From positions 1,834,191 to 1,898,190 of the forward strand of contig NZ_CP014226.1 in the NCBI RefSeq assembly GCF_001545155.1: a DNA stretch of 64,000 bases, given 5' to 3'. Shown here piece by piece: positions 9,517-33,436 of this stretch; the first letter of the stretch is position 1; each line of letters starts with the position of its first letter. Under the pieces are notes generated by a model. It was not told where the DNA came from. It did not search any database and saw only the letters and a list, made by a program, of their open reading frames with translations. Source of the DNA: Halomonas chromatireducens. GTDB taxonomy: Bacteria; Pseudomonadota; Gammaproteobacteria; Pseudomonadales; Halomonadaceae. A program made the position numbers and the translations under genes.

Positions 9517-10154
9517 GAGATGGCTTCCGACGCATGAACATGCCTAGCCTGGAAGCGCTGCAGCTCGCGGGTCTGCGGCACCTGCCCGGTGAAGATCTCG
9601 ACGTAGGCGGGGATGCGCTGCATGCGCACCTCGAGCGCTTCCTGTGTATTCATCGAGATATAGCCAATCTGGGTCAGGTAGATGGTGCGGCCGCGCACGT
9701 TGGCGGCCAGCGGCGCGTAGCCGAAGCGCTCGAACATATGTGTCAGCGCGTTGATGCGCGCCTCGTCCGCGGCATCGACTGCCCTCGCCACCTGGTCCGA
9801 CTGCAGCGCCCAGCTGCGCATCGCGAACTCCAGCTGGGAGTCGAAGAGGGCGTGGTCCAGCCAGCAGTCGAAGACGTTGAGGATCGCTTCGGTGATGCTC
9901 TCGGCGTAGGCCTCGGTCTGCTGCACCAGGCCCTGGGTGTTTTTCTCCCGCCAGCGCTCGATCAGGGCGTCCAGCAGCGCCTCGCGATCCTTGAAGAACC
10001 AGTAGAAGCTGGTTCGCGAGACGTCGAGCCGCTTGGCCAGCGGCAGGATGCGTACGCTATCCACGCCGGAGTCGAGCAGCAGCTCGAAGGCGGCGTCGAG
10101 CCAGGCATCGCGGGAGCCTTTCCATTTGGTGTCGCGGTCGGTGCCACTCGGCAT
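9513..10154 (-). CDS. TetR family transcriptional regulator
   Basis: A 213-residue regulator with an N-terminal three-helix DNA-binding domain (about 15-60; LAKRLDVSRTSFYWFFKDRE is the helix-turn-helix) and a helical ligand-binding C-terminal part containing tyrosine- and acid-rich stretches. It is the last gene of the leftward set thioesterase, flavoprotein, TetR, with a 71-base gap behind the flavoprotein. The likely target is the palindrome in the promoter of the flavoprotein gene (12319-12340). The natural ligand is unknown; an intermediate of the catabolic pathway encoded next door is the obvious guess. Confidence 0.88.
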   Translation of the reverse strand: MPSGTDRDTKWKGSRDAWLDAAFELLLDSGVDSVRILPLAKRLDVSRTSFYWFFKDREALLDALIERWREKNTQGLVQQTEAYAESITEAILNVFDCWLDHALFDSQLEFAMRSWALQSDQVARAVDAADEARINALTHMFERFGYAPLAANVRGRTIYLTQIGYISMNTQEALEVRMQRIPAYVEIFTGQVPQTRELQRFQARHVHASEAIS

Positions 10155-10225
10155 CAGCTGATGTCTCCGTTCACTAGGCCTTGTACGAAAAGTCTTCGAG
10201 CGCAGGCACTTTTCGTCAAGCGCCT

Positions 10226-12277
10226 CTAGATATCCTTCACCAGCCGCAGGGCATCATAGATCGCCGCATGGGTATTGCGTGACTCGACGGCATCGCCGAT
10301 GCGAAACAGCTGGAAGCTGCCGTCCGGGTTACGCACAACCGCCTGGGGCTGGCCGGCGATCAAATCGTCGTAGTTCACTTCGCCGCCGTTGCTGGAGTGT
10401 GGCTTGAGCTCGAAGTAGATGTCGGCCATCGGCGTGATGCCATAGTTGACCACCACCTGGTCGACGCGCCGCTCCTGGTCCAGGTCCAGCTGATCCTGCA
10501 CCGCATAGTCGCTGGTGATCCTGGCCAGCAGCTCGCCGCCTTCCCGCTGCACGGACTTCAGCCGGTAGGTGGGCGTGAAGGTGACGTTGGAGCGCTGCAG
10601 GGCGCGCATGTAGGGCACCAGGTTCATGGCCATGATCTCCGCCGAGAAGGTGCGGTCCGGCGTCATGATCTCGAGTTCGGCCCCGCTGGCGGCGATGATC
10701 TCCGCCGCCTGCATGGCGGCATGATCGCCGGCATCGTCGAACAGCAATACCCGGCTTCCCGGCGCCACGTGCCCGGAAAGGATATCCCAGGTGTTGATCA
10801 CCAGCTCGCGGCCGACCTCAGGCTGGTCCTCCATGGGATAGCCGCCGGTGGCCACGATCGCCACGTCCGGCTTCTCGGCGAGCACGTCCTCCACCTCGGC
10901 CCAGACGTTGTAGCGGATCTCGACACCGAGCGCCTCGCAGCGGGCCAGGCGCCAGTCGATGATGCCCATCATCTCGCGGCGACGCTCGCTCTGTGCCGTG
11001 AGACGCACCTGTCCGCCGGCATCGCTGGCGGCTTCCAGCACCACCACTGAATGGCCCCGTTCGCCGGCGACCCGGGCGGCCTCCAGCCCCGCGGGGCCGG
11101 CGCCGACGATCACCACCCGGCGCTGCTGCGCGGCCTTGGGGATGGTGTGGGGCATGGTGGTCTCGCGCCCGGTGGCGGCGTTGTGAATGCAGTAGGCGGC
11201 GCCGCCCTGGTAGATGCGGTCGAGACAGTAGTTGGCGCCGACGCAGGGGCGGATCTCTTCCTCGCGGCCTTCCATGATCTTGCGCACGATGTGCGGGTCG
11301 GCCATGTGGGCGCGGGTCATGCCGATCATGTCGACCTTGCCCGAGGCGATGGCATGGCGGGCGGTGGCGACGTCCTGGATCTTGGCGCCATGAAAGGTGG
11401 GGAAGTCTACCTGGCGTTTGATTTCCCCGGCGAAGTCGAGGTGCGGGGCGCTCGGCATGCCCTGGATGGGGATCACGTCGGTGAGCCCGGCGTCGGTGTC
11501 GATATGCCCGCGCACCACGTTGAGGAAGTCGACCAGGCCGCTCTCCTTCAGGCGCCGCGAGATCGCCATCCCGTCGCTTGCCGTGAGCCCACCCGGCAGC
11601 ATCTCGTCGCCGGTATAGCGCACCCCGACGATGAACGCTTCGCCGACCCGCTGACGAATGGCACGCAGCACGTCGAAGGTGAAGCGCAGCCGGTTGTCGA
11701 GGTCGCCCCCGTAAGGCCCCTCGAGGGTATTGGTCAGCGGCGACCAGAACTGATCCATCAGGTGGCCGTAGGCTTGCAGCTCGATGCCGTCGAGGCCGGC
11801 GGCGTACATGCGCTCGGCGGCATCGGCGTAGTCGCGGATCAGACGCTCGATGTCCCACTCCTCCACCTGCTTGGGAAAGGCGCGGTGGGAGGCTTCACGG
11901 CGATGCGAGGCCGATACCGCCGGCAGCCAGTCGCCCTTGTCCCAGCGGGTGCGCCGGCCCAGGTGGGTCAACTGGATCATTACCGCGGTGCCGTGTTCGT
12001 GGCAGGCGTCGGTAAGCTCACGCATCCAGGGCACAACTTCGTCCTTGTAGGCCAGGATGTTGTTGAACACCGGGGGGCTGTCCTTGGCTACCGCTGCTGA
12101 TCCTGCAGTCATGGTCAGGCCCAGCCCGGCCCGGGCTCGCTCGACATGATATTCACGATAAAGCGCCTTGGGCATCCCATCCTCGGGATAGGCAGGCTCG
12201 TGGGACGTCATCATCAGCCGATTCTTAAGCGTGAGGTGCTTGAGCTGGAAGGGCTGCAGCAGCGGATCGTTGGCCAT
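10226..12277 (-). CDS. DgcA-like FMN/FAD oxidoreductase (TMADH/old yellow enzyme family)
   Basis: A 683-residue flavoprotein with an N-terminal FMN TIM barrel of the old-yellow-enzyme type (about 1-360), a short iron-sulfur region, and a C-terminal FAD/NAD-binding half (VVIVGAGPAGLEAARVAGER near 400). The barrel shows QLTHLGRRTRWD and DGIELQAYGHLMDQFW. The cluster region reads CVGANYCLDR with a third Cys 12 positions later, so one of the four cysteines of trimethylamine dehydrogenase is absent; the dimethylglycine-demethylase (DgcA) branch as I recall it shows the same. It probably demethylates or oxidises a methylated amine; the exact substrate is not decidable. The ATG at 12277 was chosen for its ggagg site seven bases upstream. 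Confidence 0.85.
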   Translation of the reverse strand: MANDPLLQPFQLKHLTLKNRLMMTSHEPAYPEDGMPKALYREYHVERARAGLGLTMTAGSAAVAKDSPPVFNNILAYKDEVVPWMRELTDACHEHGTAVMIQLTHLGRRTRWDKGDWLPAVSASHRREASHRAFPKQVEEWDIERLIRDYADAAERMYAAGLDGIELQAYGHLMDQFWSPLTNTLEGPYGGDLDNRLRFTFDVLRAIRQRVGEAFIVGVRYTGDEMLPGGLTASDGMAISRRLKESGLVDFLNVVRGHIDTDAGLTDVIPIQGMPSAPHLDFAGEIKRQVDFPTFHGAKIQDVATARHAIASGKVDMIGMTRAHMADPHIVRKIMEGREEEIRPCVGANYCLDRIYQGGAAYCIHNAATGRETTMPHTIPKAAQQRRVVIVGAGPAGLEAARVAGERGHSVVVLEAASDAGGQVRLTAQSERRREMMGIIDWRLARCEALGVEIRYNVWAEVEDVLAEKPDVAIVATGGYPMEDQPEVGRELVINTWDILSGHVAPGSRVLLFDDAGDHAAMQAAEIIAASGAELEIMTPDRTFSAEIMAMNLVPYMRALQRSNVTFTPTYRLKSVQREGGELLARITSDYAVQDQLDLDQERRVDQVVVNYGITPMADIYFELKPHSSNGGEVNYDDLIAGQPQAVVRNPDGSFQLFRIGDAVESRNTHAAIYDALRLVKDI

Positions 12278-24424: not shown

Positions 24425-24682
24425 CAGGTTGGCTCCCCATACGTTTTTTCAAGCAGTTCGAGCAATGAAGTTTCGCCTCTAGCGGCTTGTGCCAGTAGGG
24501 GGCGCATCTCCTCCGATTCCCAAAAGATGTCCCCTTGGCTGAGCTTTAAGTATGCAAAGGTTCGGCGATCTGATGTGCGTTTCAAACCGTACGAGTCGGC
24601 TTTTTCCAGCACCTGTCCAATCAGGCGAGGGCGCTCGCAAGGGCAAATGTTGTTGAACAAGTCTGGCGTATTTTCAATTAGG
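24424..24682 (-). pseudogene. C-terminal fragment of a T6SS-associated gene cut by an IS
   Basis: The frame reads about 86 residues from the IS edge to its stop, ending LAQAARGETSLLELLEKTYG. The helical pattern with YGL and the closing FWESEEMRPLL segment resembles C-terminal tails of proteins encoded beside T6SS effectors (DUF4123-like), but the match is by eye only. The 5' part is missing: the frame runs straight into the left end of the IS481-family element. The TTG at 24660 is not a convincing natural start. It overlaps the start of the first DUF3304 gene. Confidence 0.5.
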
Positions 24683-25667
24683 TGTCGGGTCCCGTGTGAT
24701 TGACCACCCGCTTAGTAAATAACTCAGGGCGTTTGGTCTGCCATTCCTTCATCGCTGCAATCGGTGATTGATGGTGCAGCGCCTTCTGTGGGATATGGTG
24801 GTTGTACAGCCAGCAGTAGCGTTTCAACGTCTGCTCCAGGTCCTCGCCTGACGTATAGCGGCGAGTCGCCAGTACATCGCTGATGCGGCCGTTGAAGCGT
24901 TCCACCATGCCGTTTGTCTGCGGCCTTCCCGGCTTGATCAGACGATGTGCGATGCCATGGGCCTGGCACTCCTGATCGAAGGGGTGGTGGCCGCTGGGCT
25001 TGCGCTCACCCGCCCGCGTGAAGCGATCGGTGAACGACTTGCCGTTGTCGGTCAGCACCGTCTGGATCTTGAAGGGAGCCTTTTCCTCCACCCGCTTCAT
25101 GAACCCCCGCGCATCCTTCGCGGACTGGCTGCACCTGACCTCCAGATAGACCCAGCGCGTGGCACGGTCGATGGCGACGTACAGGTAGCGCTTTTGCTGC
25201 TCGTCGGGCATCTGAGGCAGGTGCTTGATGTCGACGTGTACGAAGCCCGGCTCGTAGTCCTTGAAGGGCTTGTACCGGGGCTTCTCATCATCGCCGGCGT
25301 CCTGCCGGGCCAATGCCGCCAGTGTTGGGACCTCGCGCCGCTTTAGCATGCGATGCAGGCCAGAGCGTGACAAGCGGGGATTCAGGAACTCACGGGCCAC
25401 GACGAGGAGATCATCCAAGCCGAGGCGAAGAAATTCGCGAGCCGTGATCAGCAGCTCCTCCTGCTCGGGAGTGAGCGTGGCGAGCAGGTTGTGACGCGTG
25501 TGTGGACGGTCATAGACATCGTCACGGTATCGCCAGCGCCGGATGGTCGCGGTGGAGACGCGATACTGGCGGGCTAGCTCACTATCCGTGATGCTGAAGG
25601 GTGCTGCCTGGATCTCGGCACGGATCTTCGGTGTCGTCGTCGCTTGTTTATGCAGCTTGATGTCCAT
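24678..25667 (-). CDS. IS481-family transposase
   Basis: A 329-residue DDE recombinase. The N-terminus has a helix-turn-helix of the homeodomain-like type (SELARQYRVSTATIRRWRYR, about 28-47); the catalytic core shows the first Asp in GFVHVDIKHLP, the second in VLTDNGKSF and the Glu in NGMVERFNGRISD, then LKRYCWLYNHHIPQKAL as in integrase-type transposases. It appears intact. The stop codon lies three to five bases outside the IS left end, so the last residue depends on flanking DNA. Confidence 0.92.
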   Translation of the reverse strand: MDIKLHKQATTTPKIRAEIQAAPFSITDSELARQYRVSTATIRRWRYRDDVYDRPHTRHNLLATLTPEQEELLITAREFLRLGLDDLLVVAREFLNPRLSRSGLHRMLKRREVPTLAALARQDAGDDEKPRYKPFKDYEPGFVHVDIKHLPQMPDEQQKRYLYVAIDRATRWVYLEVRCSQSAKDARGFMKRVEEKAPFKIQTVLTDNGKSFTDRFTRAGERKPSGHHPFDQECQAHGIAHRLIKPGRPQTNGMVERFNGRISDVLATRRYTSGEDLEQTLKRYCWLYNHHIPQKALHHQSPIAAMKEWQTKRPELFTKRVVNHTGPDT

Positions 25668-25761: not shown

Positions 25762-26121
25762 ATGCAAGAATTGAAGTCTCGCATTGACAAGATGGTCGGA
25801 AAGCACCGAGATGACTGCCTAGAAGCTATTCTCACACATTTTAGTAGATTGGCTGTTGTGATTGGGGTGATGGCGGGCTCTGGTGCTCTAGTCAGGTATA
25901 GAGAAGTGGTGCTTCCTGAAGCTCCCAGTTTCGCTGGCTTCATGGGTTTAAGCTTACTTCTCGTCTCTTTTGGACTGTTGGCTTGGGTTGCATTTAGCGG
26001 GTGGTACAAATTGGTGGAGATGAGTAGTTACTCATGGAGTAAGCACAGCGCTGGCGCGCTGATTATGGTTCTATCTATGCTCTTTGTCGTTGCAGGTGTG
26101 CATGCAGCATTCTCCAATTAA
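25762..26121 (+). CDS. Cassette 1: small membrane protein of unknown function
   Basis: A 119-residue protein with three likely membrane helices (LAVVIGVMAGSGALV, about 30-44; FMGLSLLLVSFGLLAWVAF, about 60-78; GALIMVLSMLFVVAGVHAAF, about 98-117). No family is recognised. Its ATG is only four bases from the right end of the IS, so its own ribosome site and promoter have been replaced by IS sequence; the original start could have been further upstream. It ends at an attC-like site, which marks it as the first visible cassette of the array. Confidence 0.55.
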   Translation: MQELKSRIDKMVGKHRDDCLEAILTHFSRLAVVIGVMAGSGALVRYREVVLPEAPSFAGFMGLSLLLVSFGLLAWVAFSGWYKLVEMSSYSWSKHSAGALIMVLSMLFVVAGVHAAFSN

Positions 26122-26199
26122 CAAGGCCAATCACGGCGACAGCTTTTCCGTTGCGGCTGCGCCTTCACTACAAAGCTGCGCGTGTTGGCGGCGTTATGT
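26118..26199 (+). other. attC-like recombination site 1
   Basis: Starts with ttaacaa at the stop of cassette 1 and ends at GTTATGT. The arms gccaatcacggcgacagcttt and aaagctgcgcgtgttggcg are largely complementary, giving the long imperfect hairpin expected of an integron attC. Confidence 0.75.
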
Positions 26200-26216
26200 T
26201 GTAAACGAGGTATTCA

Positions 26217-26699
26217 ATGAATTTGGAAGTAAATAGTCTCGAGTACAAATGTTGGCACGAGATAGGGCATGCTGTAGTTTGCTTGCATTTAGGCGGGACG
26301 GTCGAGTTTGTAGAAATAATGGGTGAGGAAAGTGAAGGAAGAGGCTTTGCTCGGGCAAGATGCAACACCACACCTGATATACGTCCGTCCGTACTGTGCG
26401 CAGGTTTCGCGACTGAATACGTCCTTTCAAGAAAAGGGTTTCTAGCTGCAATCGACGAGAAAGAATTTACGCAGTTAGTTTTCAAGAACGCCAGCATAGA
26501 TAGAGAAATGTACCATCGCGTCTCTGATCAGCATGACTTTAGCGAGAATGAGGATCGGGAGTTCATGAATTTGGCTGTCACGATTGTTGCTCCAATAATC
26601 GCCTCTCATTTTAGTAAGATGCGTGAAATTGTAGGAATACTTTGTAGCGAAGGAAGAATAGAAGGTTCGAAAATTGAAGCTGTACTCAAAGCAACATAA
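26217..26699 (+). CDS. Cassette 2: HEXXH metalloprotease-like protein
   Basis: A 160-residue protein whose N-terminal motif CWHEIGHAVVCLHLGG (His14, Glu15, His18) is an HEXXH zinc-peptidase signature in the style of FtsH/M41 peptidases, followed by VLCAGFATEYVLSRKG and IDEKEFTQ that resemble the helix carrying the third M41 ligand. No ATPase domain or membrane helix is present, so it would be a free-standing protease domain. RBS cgagg precedes the ATG. Base composition is AT-rich compared with the chromosome outside the array. Confidence 0.6.
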   Translation: MNLEVNSLEYKCWHEIGHAVVCLHLGGTVEFVEIMGEESEGRGFARARCNTTPDIRPSVLCAGFATEYVLSRKGFLAAIDEKEFTQLVFKNASIDREMYHRVSDQHDFSENEDREFMNLAVTIVAPIIASHFSKMREIVGILCSEGRIEGSKIEAVLKAT

Positions 26700-26771
26700 C
26701 CAAGCCATTAAATTCGCTCCCTGCGGTCGCCGGACCTCGTTACATTCGGCCGCTTATGGCTGGCGTTATGT
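26694..26771 (+). other. attC-like recombination site 2
   Basis: Runs from ACATAAC at the stop of cassette 2 to GTTATGT. Outer arms pair (aagccat and atggctgg) with a GC-rich centre of ggtcgccggacc type. It places the AAA ATPase gene in its own cassette. Confidence 0.7.
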
Positions 26772-26800
26772 GCTTTGGAGTAGTAGGAGGTATCGATAGG

Positions 26801-28969
26801 GTGATTGCCGAAATTTACATGGATGCAGTAGCGAGCTTTAAGCAAGCTACGTCGCTCGTTACGGATAAGAAAATAAATCTTATCTACGGCCTAAACGGCA
26901 CCGGTAAATCAACAATCTCCAACTTCCTTTATGAGCCCGACAATCCTGCGTTCATTTTCTGCAAAAAGGTGCCCGCAGCATCGGTTCCAATTCTCGTTTA
27001 CAACCAAAATTTCATACGAGACAACTTCTATGTTGCGGATAGTCTGCAAGGAATCTTCAGCCTTTCAAAAGAGAACAAAGAAGCTGAACAAAAGATAGCC
27101 GACGCGATAAAGAAGCAAGGGGAGCTTGAGCAGGATATACAAGAGAAGTGCAGTGAAAAGGAGTTGGCAACACAGGCACTTTCCAAACAAAGAAACCAGG
27201 CCATAGAAAAAGTTTGGAGCATCAAACAGACCTATGCTGGCGGTGATCGCGTTCTTGAATACTGTCTCGAAGGGCTAAAGGGACAAAAAGACAAGCTTTT
27301 TGCCCACCTCCAGGGCATCCAGAAGCCCGCCAGTGAGCCAAAAAAAGACGTTCAAACAATCCGGCAGGAAGTAGAAGCGCTCAAAGGTGATGATGCTCAG
27401 TTCCAACCGCGACTAGCTACGCTGTCTTTTGCTGCTTACAGTGTCGAGTCTGACCCGGTGTTCGGAAAATCCATCCTTGGGAATACCGATAGTGAGGTTG
27501 CAGCTCTAATCGAGAAGTTGGGGAATTCGGACTGGGTAAAGCAAGGCCTTTCTTACTTGCCGGAGAGTGTAGGTAATTCAAACACGCAATGCCCATTTTG
27601 CCAGGAAGCAACAATTTCGGAGAAATTTATCGACAGCGTAAGGTCGTACTTTGATGTGACCTACGAGAAGCAGTTAGACGAGCTTGCGCAACTTCTAAAG
27701 GCGTACCGAGCCGCTTTTGATTCGTTGCCGGGACTGAGTTCCTTTATCGATCATCCATTCGCAGAAAAGCGCAAGGACTCCATAACCAATAAATATCAGT
27801 TGCTTGTAGACGCTCTCCAGAGTAATGCTCGCAAGATTGAAGCAAAGTTAAAGAGTCCAAAGGTTCCGACTACGTTGTCCGACACGACTGGCTTGGTCGC
27901 CAATTTCAACTCAGCAGTCGGCCAGATTAACTCAGAAGTCGATGAGTACAACGACAAGCTCAAAAACCGTGAATCTGCTCTCGAAAACTTACGCAACGAG
28001 TTTTGGCAACTGATGCGGTGGCAGTATGACCAAACAATGGCGAGGCTTGATGCCGACCGACAGGCGGCTAACCAGCAACTGCAAGGCTTAGATGTAGAGA
28101 TCGGAAATATTGATGCTGAGCTGGCAAAGGTCAAAGGGGAAATTGCGGAGGCACAAAAACAGACCGTGAATATTGACCACGCGGTCAGTGCTATCAATGC
28201 AGGACTTATTGACCTCGGCATAGATGACTTCAGAGTACAGAAGCACTCTGACAACCTCTATCGTGTGGTGCGCGCAGGTGATTCCAAAGACGCATTTCAC
28301 TCGCTAAGCGAGGGAGAGAAGATGATGATCAGCTTCTTGTACTTCTGCGAGCTGTGTAAGGGTAAGGCTAGCGCAGAGGACACTCAAGCTCAGCGCATCG
28401 CAGTGATAGATGATCCAATTTCGAGCCTTTCTCATGTATTCATCTTCAGCGTCGGGCAACTCATTCGTTCGGTGTTCTTCAAGGGGGATCGGTTCAGTCA
28501 GGTCATTGTCCTGACCCATAGTCTGTACTTCTTCTACGAGATGACAGATCCGAATCACGAGCGCCGTGAGAAAACACAGAAATTGTTTAGGCTTTCAAAG
28601 CCCTCTTCTGGCAGCGTCATCCAGGAGATGAAGTACGAGGAAATTCAAAATGACTATCAAGCATACTGGTCTGTTGTTAATGACCAGTCTCAACCGCCGG
28701 CACTTATCGCAAACTGTATGCGCAACATAGTCGAGTACTTTTTCAACTTTGTTCGCAAGAAAGACCTGAATAATGTTTTCCAGATGCCGGAGCTCCAAGA
28801 TGCGAAGTACCAAGCGTTTTGCCGATATATCAATCGGGAGTCACATTCACTTGGCCAGAACATCATAGATATGAAGGAGTTCAACTATGACGTCTTCAAG
28901 GAGGGATTGAGGCTGGTTTTTGAGAAAACGGGCTACTCGGACCACTACAAAGCCATGTCTAAATGCTAG
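26801..28969 (+). CDS. Cassette 3: AAA_13 ATPase, PrrC/RloC-like putative anticodon nuclease
   Basis: A 722-residue protein with an ABC-type ATPase head: Walker A GLNGTGKST (30-38), a long coiled coil broken by a CPFC pair (264-267) that resembles a small zinc hook, a second coiled coil, SLSEGEKMMISFLYFCEL as signature and RIAVIDDPISSLS as Walker B. The C-terminal region has Arg641, Glu645 (MRNIVEY) and His682 (RESHSLG), in the order and rough spacing of the Arg-Glu-His nuclease triad of PrrC and RloC anticodon nucleases. Such enzymes cut tRNA on phage infection. The GTG start at 26801 follows aggagg by ten bases; an in-frame ATG at 26756 lies within attC. Function is inferred from these motifs only. 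Confidence 0.68.
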   Translation: MIAEIYMDAVASFKQATSLVTDKKINLIYGLNGTGKSTISNFLYEPDNPAFIFCKKVPAASVPILVYNQNFIRDNFYVADSLQGIFSLSKENKEAEQKIADAIKKQGELEQDIQEKCSEKELATQALSKQRNQAIEKVWSIKQTYAGGDRVLEYCLEGLKGQKDKLFAHLQGIQKPASEPKKDVQTIRQEVEALKGDDAQFQPRLATLSFAAYSVESDPVFGKSILGNTDSEVAALIEKLGNSDWVKQGLSYLPESVGNSNTQCPFCQEATISEKFIDSVRSYFDVTYEKQLDELAQLLKAYRAAFDSLPGLSSFIDHPFAEKRKDSITNKYQLLVDALQSNARKIEAKLKSPKVPTTLSDTTGLVANFNSAVGQINSEVDEYNDKLKNRESALENLRNEFWQLMRWQYDQTMARLDADRQAANQQLQGLDVEIGNIDAELAKVKGEIAEAQKQTVNIDHAVSAINAGLIDLGIDDFRVQKHSDNLYRVVRAGDSKDAFHSLSEGEKMMISFLYFCELCKGKASAEDTQAQRIAVIDDPISSLSHVFIFSVGQLIRSVFFKGDRFSQVIVLTHSLYFFYEMTDPNHERREKTQKLFRLSKPSSGSVIQEMKYEEIQNDYQAYWSVVNDQSQPPALIANCMRNIVEYFFNFVRKKDLNNVFQMPELQDAKYQAFCRYINRESHSLGQNIIDMKEFNYDVFKEGLRLVFEKTGYSDHYKAMSKC

Positions 28970-28989
28970 TAGTGCCAAGGGAGAAGCGC

Positions 28990-29067
28990 ACATAACAATC
29001 GGCTGCACGGCGACCGATTTTCCGCCGCTTCGCTGCTTCAAACCGGCGCGTGAGCCGGGCGTTATGC
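28990..29067 (+). other. attC-like recombination site 3
   Basis: From ACATAAC to GTTATGC, with arms caatcggctgcacggcg and accggcgcgtgagccgggcg folding on each other. It begins 20 bases after the ATPase stop. Confidence 0.75.
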
Positions 29068-29077
29068 AGGAGAAGCA

Positions 29078-29536
29078 ATGAGCTCGATTGACGCTTTGAT
29101 TGACTCCACAGACGAATTTTTCCGTCGGCACTGGACATCTTGCATCGCGCATCCTACGCCAGAATGGAAAGCCGACTGGGACTGGAAAGGCTCCGTGCCG
29201 CACCATGATAAGCGCGGTGTTTACGCACTATTTGACGAAGCAGGTAAAGTTATATACGTAGGTCTTGGCGCCTCGGTAGGCGGAGGAGATCGTACAGGCT
29301 ATGGAATATCGCGACGGTTGCTTGCACATGTAATAACCACCGACAAGACGAGAGGTCGAGGGCATTATGTGCCTCAAGGGAAGTGGTCGGAAGTTAGCTC
29401 GTTAGCAGCTATCGGCTTTCCTAATGAGTATTCCTATCTAGCTCCAGCGCTTGAGGATTATCTAATTGAAAGGTTAGCGCCGCCAAGAAATAGTAGCAAG
29501 AGAAGAAAGGCAAATGTTGAAGCTATCAATGCATAA
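29078..29536 (+). CDS. Cassette 4: GIY-YIG fold protein
   Basis: A 152-residue protein with the elements of a GIY-YIG nuclease domain: GVY (47-49), YVG (60-62) twelve residues later, ISRRLLAHV with the conserved Arg, and ALEDYLIERLAPPRN with Glu126 and Asn138 in the positions of the metal-binding Glu and C-terminal Asn. It has no added DNA-binding domain. The role is unknown; homing, repair or restriction-like activity are all possible. RBS ggagaag precedes the ATG in the right flank of attC 3. Confidence 0.65.
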   Translation: MSSIDALIDSTDEFFRRHWTSCIAHPTPEWKADWDWKGSVPHHDKRGVYALFDEAGKVIYVGLGASVGGGDRTGYGISRRLLAHVITTDKTRGRGHYVPQGKWSEVSSLAAIGFPNEYSYLAPALEDYLIERLAPPRNSSKRRKANVEAINA

Positions 29537-29608
29537 CAAAGCGCATCAATTCGCGCCGGTCGGCGCCGGACACTTGCTTCGCTCGCGCCGTTGTGCGCGG
29601 CGTTATGA
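29531..29608 (+). other. attC-like recombination site 4
   Basis: From GCATAAC, overlapping the stop of cassette 4, to GTTATGA. Arms aagcgcatcaattcgcgcc and gcgcgttgtgcgcgg style sequences pair imperfectly around a GC centre. Confidence 0.75.
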
Positions 29609-29632
29609 TTAAAAACCTACAAAGGAAACAAC

Positions 29633-30337
29633 ATGCTTTTCAGCGATGATTTTATAAAAAAAGTTGAAGATGAGCCCATACTGGGAGTTGTTAAAGCCTG
29701 TGAAATGGCGTTTTCAGCCATAAGCGAAGTAATGACAGACGAGCAAAGTTGGAATCAGGATGAACATGAAATTCTTTGGGAGGCTGCGTCTTTTATAAAT
29801 GCTGTCTTAGAACAAGAAGGCTTTACGGTACCAGTCGAATTTCCTGAACCAACTGGTGATATTATAACAAATTGCAAAAATACGCATGAGTATATTTCTA
29901 GCGTACAAAGTCATTTCAAAGAGCAGTCCATTCTTCTAAAAGTTCAGTCTTATACTAGTCGATATAAAGCATCATTAAAGTCGTCTTTTGCTTATGAGTT
30001 CTCGCAAGGTGATTTGGAGCGTATACAAGTTCTTATAAATGAACTGAGGTCTAAGATATCAGAGCAGGAATCTTTAGAGCAGGAACACAAGCAACGGTTG
30101 CTAAAACGTCTTGAAAAGTTACAGTCAGAGCTCCATAAACGCGTATCAGATTTGGATAGATTTTGGGGGCTTGTCGGGGATGCCGGCGTAGTATTGGGGA
30201 AATTAGGCAAGGATGCTAAGCCCATTGTAGACAGAACTCGTGAAATTGCAGAGATAATTTGGAAGACTCAGGCACGGTCCGAGGAGTTACCAAGTGGCAC
30301 TCAGAATCCAATGCTTGAACATGACGATAAATCATAA
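29633..30337 (+). CDS. Cassette 5: hypothetical protein with coiled coil
   Basis: A 234-residue soluble protein with no recognised family. The N-terminal 100 residues are acidic and mixed alpha/beta; residues about 125-180 form a strong charged coiled coil (ERIQVLINELRSKISEQESL, then KRLEKLQSELHKRVSDLDRF). A short glycine-rich stretch (GLVGDAGVVLGKLG) follows. It has good aaaggaaa-type ribosome spacing, is AT-rich, and is bounded by attC-like sites on both sides, so it is a genuine cassette gene of unknown role. Confidence 0.6.
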   Translation: MLFSDDFIKKVEDEPILGVVKACEMAFSAISEVMTDEQSWNQDEHEILWEAASFINAVLEQEGFTVPVEFPEPTGDIITNCKNTHEYISSVQSHFKEQSILLKVQSYTSRYKASLKSSFAYEFSQGDLERIQVLINELRSKISEQESLEQEHKQRLLKRLEKLQSELHKRVSDLDRFWGLVGDAGVVLGKLGKDAKPIVDRTREIAEIIWKTQARSEELPSGTQNPMLEHDDKS

Positions 30338-30415
30338 CAAGTGCAGTCACGGCGACGCCCTCTCTATTGCGCCTTCGGCTCCATTCCAAGGTCGCGCGTG
30401 CTGCAAGCGTTATGC
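30332..30415 (+). other. attC-like recombination site 5
   Basis: From TCATAAC at the stop of cassette 5 to GTTATGC. Left arm gtgcagtcacggcgacgcc and right arm ggtcgcgcgtgctgcaagc are complementary with bulges. Confidence 0.75.
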
Positions 30416-30426
30416 ACAGGGAGGCT

Positions 30427-30981
30427 ATGGTGCAGGTCTGTGAAACGGAGAGGTTGATTTTACGTCAGTTATCCCTCAGCGATGTTCCCGCATTGACTGA
30501 AATTCTCAGCGATCCTGAGGTGATGAAGCACTCGGTTAATGGCGTTTGTGATGAGGCCGCTACCCGAAAATTCGTTGAGTGGTGTTTATCCTGTTACGAG
30601 TCACATGGTGTGGGGCCGTGGGCACTAATCGATAAAGAATCTTCTGATCTCATAGGCTTTTGCAGTGCTGGACCAGAAATGGTTGGTGATGTCGAGGAAA
30701 TCAACCTCGGCTACCGGCTTGCCAGGCGCTATTGGAACAAAGGGCTGGCATCTGAGGCGGCTAGAGCAGTTCTGAATTATGTTTTTGGAGAGAAACTGCT
30801 CAAATCAGTGGTAGTAATCATAGAGCCCGAGCATCTGGCATCGCTAAAGGTCGCTGAGAAGGCAGGATTTTCCAGCTTTGATGTACTGGAATTTCATGGT
30901 CGGCCGGTGAGACTATACCGGCTAACGTCTGAGCAATGGGAAACATTGCATAATAATGCCATGCGCGCGACAAGCGCGTAA
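30427..30981 (+). CDS. Cassette 6: GNAT family N-acetyltransferase
   Basis: A 184-residue RimJ/RimL-type acetyltransferase. It begins ETERLILRQLSLSDVPAL as most members do, and has the acetyl-CoA-binding stretch LARRYWNKGLASEAARAVLN (motif A) and EPEHLASLKVAEKAGF (motif B). The substrate could be a ribosomal protein, an amino acid or an antibiotic. The ATG at 30427 is only two bases from aggg agg; the GTG three bases on has better spacing. The last codons lie within a short attC. Confidence 0.8.
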   Translation: MVQVCETERLILRQLSLSDVPALTEILSDPEVMKHSVNGVCDEAATRKFVEWCLSCYESHGVGPWALIDKESSDLIGFCSAGPEMVGDVEEINLGYRLARRYWNKGLASEAARAVLNYVFGEKLLKSVVVIIEPEHLASLKVAEKAGFSSFDVLEFHGRPVRLYRLTSEQWETLHNNAMRATSA

Positions 30982-30996
30982 TGGCGGCCGTTAGGC
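30948..30996 (+). other. Short attC-like site 6 overlapping the GNAT gene
   Basis: A 49-base candidate from GCATAAT to GTTAGGC. It folds well: gccat pairs with atggc and gcgcg with cgcg around the loop acaa. The GNAT stop codon at 30979-30981 lies inside it. It is shorter than most attC sites and its first box is imperfect. Confidence 0.5.
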
Positions 30997-31019
30997 TCCA
31001 TCAGTCACGGAGGGAGTGA

Positions 31020-31430
31020 ATGGAAATCAAGTGTATTGCGGGTTTTGCGTCAATTACGAAAGATCCCGCGGCAAGTGCGTCCCTGTATCAGGATGCACTA
31101 GGTCTGCCGCTGGAGAAGATGGACGATTATCGTTTTATGGATAAATTCCCCGGAGCGAATCATTTCGGGGTATGGCCCCTCTCTATGGCAGCCCAGTCTT
31201 GTTTTGGCCAAGAGGAATGGCCAGGCCATGTTCCTGAGCCGACAGCTACAATTGAATTTGAGTTGGCGGACGCGGCTGCTGTGGAGGCGGCAGTACAAGA
31301 AATGAAGGAAAGGGGTCAGGAGTTCGTTCATGAAACCCGGACTGAACCCTGGGGGCAGACAGTCGCAAGGTTTATTAGCCCCGAAGGAGTGTTGGTTGGT
31401 CTGAGTTATGCGCCATGGCTTCATGAATAA
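31020..31430 (+). CDS. Cassette 7: VOC (glyoxalase/bleomycin-resistance fold) protein
   Basis: A 136-residue protein of the vicinal oxygen chelate superfamily, with the paired beta-alpha-beta-beta-beta layout: GFASITKDPAASASLYQDAL at the start, ATIEFELADAAAVEAAVQEM in the middle, and ISPEGVLVGLSYAPW at the end. It may be a dioxygenase, glyoxalase or drug-binding protein. It follows a ggaggg site and ends three bases before the next attC-like site. Confidence 0.78.
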   Translation: MEIKCIAGFASITKDPAASASLYQDALGLPLEKMDDYRFMDKFPGANHFGVWPLSMAAQSCFGQEEWPGHVPEPTATIEFELADAAAVEAAVQEMKERGQEFVHETRTEPWGQTVARFISPEGVLVGLSYAPWLHE

Positions 31431-31432
31431 GA

Positions 31433-31508
31433 GCCTAACCATAGCGTCAACGCGGACTGGCTTTTCCGCTGACGCTCCAAAACCAGCCGGTTACGCTGGG
31501 CGTTCAGG
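31433..31508 (+). other. attC-like recombination site 7
   Basis: Begins with a consensus box GCCTAAC and ends at GTTCAGG. The arms agcgtcaacgcggactggctttt and aaaaccagccggttacgctgg pair nearly throughout, the clearest hairpin of the array. Confidence 0.8.
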
Positions 31509-31576
31509 CTGTAGAAAAAGCCCATAGCCTCCGTCGGTTTGGTAGGATCGGAAAAAACAGCCTAGGAGTGGTCATC

Positions 31577-31770
31577 ATGCCCCGCTTCAAGCTCTACAAC
31601 CATGATCAAAACGCCATGGTGGTGAATCCACTACCAAAATCAGCTCCAACCCGGTACCCTTGAGCACGCAGTGCATTACCTGATCGAGCATAAACTCGAC
31701 TTGTCGGTTTTCCATCCCAGGTATCGCAACGACACGACAGGTCGGCTGGTCTATGATGCAGTTATTCTAT
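31577..31770 (+). pseudogene. N-terminal transposase remnant (IS1182-like)
   Basis: Reads MPRFKLYNHDQNAMVV in one frame, then after a frame change LEHAVHYLIEHKLDLSVFHP and YRNDTTGRLVYDAVIL, the conserved opening of a transposase family that usually starts in this way. A stop (tga near 31660) and the frame break make it dead, and the rest of the gene is missing. It lies in a 295-base stretch between attC 7 and the Rho-like gene that otherwise holds no gene, and suggests the Rho-like gene came with an IS event. Confidence 0.65.
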
Positions 31771-31804
31771 AAATTCAGGTTATTCAAGGTGATTCATCGA
31801 CATT

Positions 31805-32764
31805 ATGGCGAGAAAAATACTAGCTTTGAAAGTGAAAAAGCAGATAGATGCCAAGCCCGCCGACGAAGTTGCAGATCAATTCCCTGAAGATTCCGAAAAA
31901 CGTTTTTTAAATGGAGTCGCTATTCATCCTTCCCCACGCATTTATTTAGAGCTAGGTTCTAATCAGCGTAGTGTGCGAGCGATGGATTTAATTACACCAA
32001 TTGGGATGGGGCAACGAGGGTTGATTGTTGCGCCGCCAGGCTCTGGCAAAACGACGATGTTAAAACATATCTGTCAGGCCGTGGCAGAAGCTTATCCTGA
32101 CATAAAGCTGTATGCCTTGCTTATTGATGAGCGCCCTGAAGAAGTGACAGATTTTAAGCGCAGTGTTGCGGCAGAAGTACATGCATCGTCTTCAGATGAA
32201 AGCTACACACAACATGTAAGTGTGGCGGATAAGCTTCTTGAGACAGCTCGTAAGCAAGCAGGCGACGGTCATAATGTGATGATTGTGATTGATTCTCTTA
32301 CGAGACTCTCGCGGGTTCATAATGCCGAGCAGCGAAGCAATGGTCGCACTATGTCGGGTGGGCTGGATACCCGAGCGTTGGAAATACCACGCAAACTGTT
32401 TGGCGCCGCGAGAAAGATTGAAAATGGCGGATCGCTCACCATTCTGGCCACCGTGCTGGTGGATACGGGAAGCCGTATGGATCAGGTGATTTTCGAGGAG
32501 TTCAAAGGCACGGGCAATATGGAAATCGTGTTATCACGGGAAGTGGCAAATCAACGGATTTTTCCTGCGATAGATATTGCCAAAAGCAGCACCCGTCGAG
32601 AAGAGATTTTGATTGATGCAAGAGATATTGAAAAAGTAAGGGCGTTGCGTAGAGCTTTGACAAGTCTTAAGCCAGCAGAAGGTGCGCAGAAGTTACTTGA
32701 ATTATTGGAAAAATATCCAACGAATGCCGAGCTATTAGATATTTTTCACCAGCCTAATGGTTAG
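31805..32764 (+). CDS. Rho-like ATPase lacking the RNA-binding N-terminal domains
   Basis: A 319-residue homologue of transcription terminator Rho (about 419 residues normally). It covers only the hexameric ATPase domain: PRIYLELG, DLITPIGMGQRGLIVAPPGSG (P-loop 76-84), LLIDERPEEVTD with the catalytic Glu, the Q-loop region GRTMSGGLDTRALEIPRKLF and the R-loop region EEFKGTGNMEIVLSREVANQ, and FPAIDIAKSSTRREE. The N-terminal helical domain and cold-shock RNA-binding domain are replaced by about 30 lysine- and acid-rich residues, and a stop codon stands in frame 13 bases before the ATG. The secondary RNA site is kept, the primary one is not. Base composition is clearly more AT-rich than the chromosome. 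Confidence 0.88.
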   Translation: MARKILALKVKKQIDAKPADEVADQFPEDSEKRFLNGVAIHPSPRIYLELGSNQRSVRAMDLITPIGMGQRGLIVAPPGSGKTTMLKHICQAVAEAYPDIKLYALLIDERPEEVTDFKRSVAAEVHASSSDESYTQHVSVADKLLETARKQAGDGHNVMIVIDSLTRLSRVHNAEQRSNGRTMSGGLDTRALEIPRKLFGAARKIENGGSLTILATVLVDTGSRMDQVIFEEFKGTGNMEIVLSREVANQRIFPAIDIAKSSTRREEILIDARDIEKVRALRRALTSLKPAEGAQKLLELLEKYPTNAELLDIFHQPNG

Positions 32765-32843
32765 AGAGAAATGTAGGTAGCCGCTGCAAGGAACTCGTCG
32801 ATAAGCGACAATTTAGCGGGACACCAAACTCGGAGTAAATGGC

Positions 32844-33404: not shown

Positions 33405-33436
33405 CTCCAAACCGGCCCGTGAGCCGGGCGTTAACC
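33399..33436 (+). other. Truncated attC-like site 8
   Basis: Runs from GGCTAAC, at the end of the RibD_C-like gene, to GTTAACC in only 38 bases. Its right half, ccaaaccggcccgtgagcc, is nearly the same as the right half of attC 3, so this looks like the remnant of a full site whose left arm is lost. It is the last attC trace on the right. Confidence 0.5.

Follow-up and report, generated by a model that had tools for sequence, protein, structure and literature searches.

A Rho motor protein without the PBS, encoded beside integron-type cassettes in Halomonas chromatireducens, belongs to an old and conserved clade

Rho is commonly presented as a single protein with an RNA-recognition domain that defines its targets. 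A variation was described in Bacteroides, where passages of two papers report that a disordered, charged sequence of Rho drives RNA-dependent condensation (PMC13269538; PMC10284900). This disordered region belongs to the essential Rho of the species, according to the title of the first paper (PMC13269538). NCBIfam also holds a model of a short Rho, NF041509 (paralog_Rho2, "transcription termination factor Rho, short form"), with 360 positions. The protein investigated here was rejected as a member of that family, since it scored 323 bits against a cut-off of 628. Three short Rho proteins of Elusimicrobia and one more from Gammaproteobacteria also failed this model, with 295-330 bits. Among the open-access papers listed on Rho paralogues, short or duplicated Rho, the P-loop, integrons and the phyla, no title or opening part of an abstract described a Rho without the cold-shock domain that is its primary RNA-binding site (PBS); D'Heygere et al. 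2013, on the phyletic distribution of Rho, could report it.

We analysed a stretch of 64,000 nucleotides of the Halomonas chromatireducens genome (NZ_CP014226.1, positions 1,834,191 to 1,898,190), which is called the window. The features of the locus were as follows, in window positions.

26116..26199, forward strand: attC of the array (covariance model, 86 bits; training site)
26694..26771, forward strand: attC of the array (covariance model, 46.9 bits; training site)
28990..29067, forward strand: attC of the array (covariance model, 74.7 bits; training site)
29531..29608, forward strand: attC of the array (covariance model, 51.8 bits; training site)
30332..30415, forward strand: attC of the array (covariance model, 80.9 bits; training site)
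31433..31504, forward strand: attC bordering the rho unit on its 5' side (covariance model, 51.2 bits, E 4.7e-11; training site)
31505..31780, forward strand: transposase-like remnant that forms the 5' part of the conserved unit (weak protein support)
31805..32764, forward strand: short rho, a PBS-less Rho motor protein (319 aa, ATG start)
31805..31897, forward strand: N-terminal tail of about 31 residues, replacing the helix bundle and cold-shock domain (family alignment and tail listing)
32009..32056, forward strand: P-loop region, residues 69-84, reading GQRGLIVAPPGSGKTT (Gly where E. coli has K181)
about 33408..33433, forward strand: partial attC, right half only (26 bp, 96% to the site at 28990-29067; missed by the model)

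The short Rho was compared with the known Rho profiles. TIGR00767 covered residues 21-314 and began at profile position 118, and NF006886 covered residues 24-313 and began at position 121 (both NCBIfam). The alignments to the Rho chains of the PDB began at residue 24 or later. These results indicated that the N-terminal helix bundle and the cold-shock domain were absent, so the N-terminal domain with the cold-shock PBS, which marks canonical Rho, was lacking. It was consistent with the original prediction of a stand-alone Rho ATPase, with about 31 residues before the core. The protein reached 385 bits with NF006886, "transcription termination factor Rho", above the cut-off of 315, and stayed below that of TIGR00767 (358 against 509 bits). 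The P-loop, E211, D265 (the Walker B Asp), Q-loop, R-loop and R366 (the Arg finger) positions were present, and the alignment thus agreed with the predicted retention of the P-loop, catalytic Glu (E211), Q-loop and R-loop. The in-frame stop expected just upstream was a TGA at 31790-31792, four codons 5' of the ATG. The gene had been called AT-rich. This held against the window as a whole (GC 46.5% against 61.6%), but not against its surroundings, because the cassette region at 26.0-31.5 kb had a GC content of 47.7% and the short rho was no more AT-rich than its own array.

The genome consists of one contig of 3.97 Mb, and a separate Rho frame of 427 aa was located at 3153432-3154304, with 46% identity to the short Rho. 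This longer frame confirmed that the short gene was a second rho besides the chromosomal one and not the sole rho of the genome. A misassembled full-length rho was ruled out by the upstream stop together with the separate longer rho. The same co-residence was observed in all 44 genomes with a short rho, where a second Rho match lay in an open frame of 419-477 aa; these frames were judged by Rho match and length, not by the cold-shock domain. The set of 44 combined the samples of the order, class and genus of the window with one further genome, G005. The identity between the short Rho and the Rho of the window's order was 44-50%. In one genome (G201, C356:39423-39701), a fragment of an extra short rho was found besides the complete copy, with 86% identity over query residues 220-312.

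The family was uniform in length. Among 8000 scored relatives, the best 120 were all 311-354 aa long and 77-98% identical, with source names that included Halomonas, Vreelandella and Marinomonas. As anticipated, other short Rho proteins with a similar N-terminal tail were found, and the lengths of these listed relatives leave no room for an in-frame cold-shock domain. An alignment of 23 relatives showed the conserved tail MTRKxLSLKxKR. A strict DNA pattern for this motif matched in 4 of 10 genomes with a short rho, and four of its five matches were the short rho itself; since it missed the gene in six genomes, it says little about the motif elsewhere. The gene was present at E<=1e-90 in 43 of 390 genomes of the window's order. 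In a class-wide sample it was present in 2 of 369 genomes, both from the window's own family, and in the genus in 2 of the 61 genomes listed; all three counts include the window's own genome. A stop lay inside the matched short-rho stretch of one of the 44 genomes (G133), and the stop listed for another (G312) was the end of its 315-aa ORF. The dN/dS values of 13 short-rho pairs were 0.03-0.23, with dS saturated (>1.4) in three. The short rho is thus an intact gene for a PBS-less Rho motor under purifying selection, and it belongs to an old clade found in mobile contexts.

Short Rho proteins were also found outside Gammaproteobacteria. A survey of genome contigs gave 80 loci among the matches listed, mostly full-length Rho, with a short copy in one gammaproteobacterial contig (L024) and one Elusimicrobia contig (L025). 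The latter was the nearest relative outside Gammaproteobacteria among the matches listed, with 58% identity. This L025 copy (9761-10861) was of Elusimicrobia type, with a G/Q/R-rich tail of about 80 residues containing RRRRRR in place of the N-terminal domain, and its genome had a second Rho. In L025 and its best 120 relatives (P0122-P0241), the tails consisted of 31% Gly, 19% Gln and 12% Arg; RRR occurred in 89 of the 121 and RGG in 90, and fewer than 12 residues preceded the core in 17, which were fragments or lacked a tail. Another set of 120 listed proteins, similar to the L193 copy, had tails in which R, P, N and Q are frequent and which mostly span about 30-45 residues, and its source names came from Elusimicrobia and Omnitrophica. 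Of the genomes sampled, 4 of 79 from Elusimicrobiota and 34 of 145 from Omnitrophota carried the short type, the latter at E<=1.5e-92 with the next match at 3.6e-88; each of these phylum names rests on one member. Among the 34 Omnitrophota copies, two were contig-edge pieces and one had a stop. A second Rho match was present in 31 of these 34 genomes and in all four Elusimicrobiota genomes, in one of them as a 180-aa piece.

Phylogenetic trees were used to place the short Rho. In a careful tree of 69 rows, built without Omnitrophota, the 27 short rows (16 gammaproteobacterial and 11 Elusimicrobiota) shared one side of a branch with 100/100 support. Forcing the gammaproteobacterial short and full Rho together was rejected (AU p 2.4e-5), as was the same constraint for Elusimicrobiota (p 2.5e-5). 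In a quick tree with Omnitrophota, all 35 short rows stayed together. It included eight Omnitrophota short rows of the nine asked, one having given no motif, and the Elusimicrobia row L192 was a long branch. The gammaproteobacterial group joined seven Omnitrophota rows in this tree with SH-aLRT 99, a value given without bootstrap. The window protein belonged with the Omnitrophota and Elusimicrobiota short Rho in this clade of PBS-less Rho, which we define here as Rho-S. Since the clade lies far from the host's Rho, the short Rho is, judging by these trees, an old, transferred paralogue. A recent truncation of the host's own rho was ruled out by the first AU value. The trees fit a transfer of the short Rho between phyla.

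The surroundings of the gene were then compared with integron arrays. A looser attC pattern matched 12 times in the window, while five shuffles had 5-14 matches, and a stricter pattern gave none. Because the looser pattern was no better than the shuffles, a covariance model was built from 15 hand-chosen and hand-oriented attC-like sites, six of them from the window. It recovered the six window sites at E<1e-9, all on the forward strand from 26116 to 31504; as training sites they match by construction, and each follows an ORF end. Hits at E<=1e-3 were obtained in 8 of 44 other short-rho loci (L108, L138, L139, L140, L141, L168, L169 and L170), all on the strand of rho, and L139, L141 and L169 had supplied no training site. 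At E 0.003-1, additional short-rho loci gave weaker hits, which lay on both strands. In a control of 33 contigs with other Rho, which came from other bacteria and were unmatched in composition, the model gave no hit at E<=1. An attC directly upstream in the orientation of rho was found in the window, G005 (L108) and G214 (L138), all three being training sites. The DNA shared with G005 (97%) spanned 31499-32775 and began at the attC edge, and its start was also common to two loci of the window's family (L138 and L139). Downstream of rho, the model found no complete attC before the next gene of the window, so the term integron gene cassette applies only in part.

The genes adjoining rho in the window were cassette-like (GNAT, VOC, RibD_C and 3-dmu-9_3-mt). 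No integron integrase was found beside the array; the best IntI-like match of the genome was partial and lay about 137 kb beyond the window. This frame, at 2035095-2035613 of the genome, scored 211 bits against a cut-off of 265 and is perhaps the array's former integrase. At the left edge of the array, an rve-type integrase/transposase gene was observed on the reverse strand (window 24678-25667). The gene had been placed between a transposase remnant and an attC-like trace. The trace stood, as the partial attC at 33408-33433, but the remnant was weakly supported. Two fragments gave no Pfam hit, and the remnant had no blastn match in plasmids and one tblastn match to an annotated transposase (E 0.01, 39.5% identity). 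The corrected order was attC, transposase-like remnant, rho and a later partial attC, amid cassette-like genes. The relatives of the short Rho thus showed the mobile contexts that had been expected, in integron-type arrays and one phage-plasmid. In this phage-plasmid, pB of Spartinivicinus ruber, the short rho adjoined holin genes, and one viral contig with a short rho showed the same genes as pB. However, a phage or plasmid derivation was not general. Of 484 plasmid records with a match, one reached an identity of 60% or more, as did none of 22 such phage records, and a general origin of this kind was rejected. Other Rho genes of any length, with 44-46% identity, were observed in enterobacterial plasmids of 91-97 kb, a Salmonella record of 98 kb and Acinetobacter phage records of 92 kb.

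The neighbours of the short rho differed between lineages. Neighbour families were checked on one representative each and the rest were assigned by clustering; the representatives missed the subfamily cut-offs, so RhlE, RsuA, RluE and EttA are the nearest model names. Among 45 gammaproteobacterial loci, the window included, an RhlE-like DEAD-box helicase stood right next to rho in 10 and a RIO1 kinase in one, and an RsuA-like pseudouridine synthase lay immediately upstream in six. The union was 15 loci, and in the other 30, the window and G005 among them, none of the three was immediately adjacent. The helicases near rho formed one tight group with 73-94% identity. In a search that covered 80 of 93 genomes and left out 13 without a short rho, 17 of the 44 that carry the gene had a close helicase (at least 73% identity), compared to 0 of the 36 that lack it; the 73% line was drawn after the table had been seen, and the controls were hand-chosen. 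The Fisher p for this co-occurrence was 1e-5, a value that ignores kinship. No more than 10 kb separated the close helicase from rho in 15 of these 17 genomes, and three of the 17 were listed with stops. The next best helicases, with 61-69% identity, occurred in genomes both with and without the short rho. Within the window's family, the close helicase was present in 5 of 7 genomes with the short rho against 0 of 17 without it, and it was absent from the window's own genome and G005.

In Omnitrophota, 16 of 20 fetched loci were resolved, and four were dropped because the rho ORF was lost to a larger overlapping ORF. An ABC-F ATPase overlapped rho or lay within 269 bp of it in 9 of the 16, and an RluE-like synthase was near rho in two. 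In Elusimicrobia, an RNase E/G gene lay 2-3 kb upstream of rho in two of four loci. An 81-aa ORF without a Pfam hit directly followed the short rho in L236 (7704-7946), and its cluster, c5, occurred in four fetched loci. The RhlE-like helicase and the rRNA- and translation-related neighbours suggested a role outside termination.

Conservation of the motor was counted in 120 gammaproteobacterial, 121 Elusimicrobia-type and 120 L193-like short Rho and compared with 92 other Rho. Residue numbers were those of E. coli Rho, transferred by alignment with gaps set aside. K184, E211, R212, R272, R353 and R366 were 100% conserved in all three short groups, and D265, G324 and R347 at least 98%. The K181 position was Gly in all 120 gammaproteobacterial proteins and in the seven Omnitrophota rows adjoining them in the quick tree. 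It was K in the Elusimicrobia set, and K (47%), G (40%) or T (11%) in the L193-like set. K or R at this P-loop position, usual but not strictly defining for canonical Rho, was found in 95% of the 92 other Rho and was absent from the window protein. A passage of PMC11718236 describes a contact of E. coli Rho K181 with the ATP gamma-phosphate, and by analogy the Gly could alter the ATPase behaviour of Rho-S. In the RNA-facing Q-loop, P279 was replaced by K or R in 97% of the gammaproteobacterial and by R in 81% of the L193-like proteins, compared to P in 79% of the 92 other Rho. However, this position was T in 90% of the Elusimicrobia set, so a basic Q-loop is not general to short Rho. K326 was R or K in 89% and Q in 10% of the gammaproteobacterial short Rho. 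The net charge of the gammaproteobacterial tail was only -3 to +6 where it could be parsed, so RNA binding by this tail is a guess.

Based on these results, we tentatively favour the reading that the short Rho is an active, PBS-independent RNA translocase in RNA and ribosome metabolism, to which we give a little less than an even chance from the sequence comparisons. For Rho-S we infer ring formation, translocation without rut, a mode of loading and a cellular role as follows. Rho-S would spread as a single accessory gene beside the normal Rho, here as an integron-type cassette or within one. By homology, it would form a Rho-type ring, bind RNA in the central channel and pull it by means of ATP. 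Without the cold-shock domain, the usual recognition of rut sites would be lost. Loading might then occur through the short tail, which is MTRKxLSLKxKR in Gammaproteobacteria and, in the other phyla, abounds in R or in RGG, and also through the more basic Q-loop of the gammaproteobacterial and L193-like groups. The target would be an RNA or RNP rather than rut-marked transcripts, and the RNA remodelling may be tied to ribosome maturation or translation, with the RhlE-like helicase as a partner in some lineages. The RNA/ribosome role is the weakest step, as it draws on neighbours in two or three phyla. A fuller version of the proposal is possible but seems to us on the doubtful side: a Rho-type ring would have been repurposed from termination to ribosomal or translation-linked RNA, transfer from phylum to phylum would have made it common to Omnitrophota, Elusimicrobiota and marine Gammaproteobacteria, and among Gammaproteobacteria it would travel in integron cassettes, partly paired with its own RhlE-type helicase.

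Other explanations were weighed against this translocase reading. Rho-S might be a rut-independent terminator that removes RNA polymerase after recruitment by NusG or the tail, for accessory or lineage-specific silencing. The conservation of the whole motor core and the NF006886 score agree with such a function, which we nevertheless consider unlikely, since the N-terminal domain carrying the PBS is absent and the recurrent neighbours point to ribosome and RNA metabolism, not transcription. R221, which we take to be tied to NusG-dependent termination, was kept as R in 100% of the gammaproteobacterial short Rho, but it does not discriminate because it was also R in 98% of the other Rho. A rho-R221C strain is listed in PMC1950744. 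The original prediction that the short protein might mix into Rho hexamers leads to a dominant modulator, whose subunits would join the host hexamer and change or block termination. A longer Rho was co-resident in every genome with a short rho, and the ring-forming motor domains are homologous. However, the identity to the host's own Rho is only about 46%, the clade is old and separate, and all catalytic residues are kept, which a poison subunit need not do. An anti-Rho action had been suggested as well, but a catalytic set that is intact and a divergence that is deep speak against a simple poison subunit, and we regard this modulator as improbable.

That the short Rho travels in cassettes and phage-plasmids as a factor of defence against phages, or of their counter-defence, seems slightly more improbable still. 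In its favour, another gene of the same array is a PADLOC candidate (PDC-S06, 867 bits), and pB carries the short rho beside holin genes. Against it, the short Rho itself matched only mad8 in PADLOC, weakly (26.5 bits) and over the ATPase region, and records of plasmids and phages with a close copy were as rare as given above, the single viral contig repeating the genes of pB. The PDC-S06 match is a 737-aa AAA_13 ATPase at window 26756-28966. The patchy distribution and the stop in G133 would suit a decaying, functionless fragment of an acquired rho, but the uniform length of the best 120 relatives, dN/dS far below 1 and a tail conserved across families leave this hardly credible.

If the translocase reading is correct, a conserved clade with the motor and without the RNA-recognition domain would suggest that the ring can work without rut recognition. 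Rho-S would supply a minimal Rho for studies of mechanism, in which the question of what the PBS adds is directly testable. It is also unusual for one component of a core transcription/RNA machine to move from phylum to phylum, and through integron-type arrays, as a lone accessory gene.

Compared to known systems, Rho-S shares its motor domain with full-length Rho (TIGR00767, NF006886), including the P-loop, E211, R212, D265, Q-loop, R-loop and R366. It differs in the loss of the helix bundle and the cold-shock/PBS domain, in its own tail and in the change of K181 to Gly. In addition, the window protein has a basic Q-loop, belongs to a separate deep clade, and is accessory and mobile. The NF041509 family is likewise a Rho paralogue and aligns over the motor domain, but the model is longer by about 44 positions ahead of the shared part: residue 18 of the window protein, where the match starts, falls at model position 62. 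RhlE-type DEAD-box helicases are ATP-driven RNA remodelers like Rho but form an unrelated family, so the helicase is a neighbour and not a homologue. The disordered region of Bacteroides Rho can be compared with the tails of Elusimicrobia-type Rho-S, which are rich in R and G. It is reportedly an insertion beside the usual domains. It sits in the essential Rho, whereas the tail of Rho-S replaces the N-terminal domain of a second Rho.
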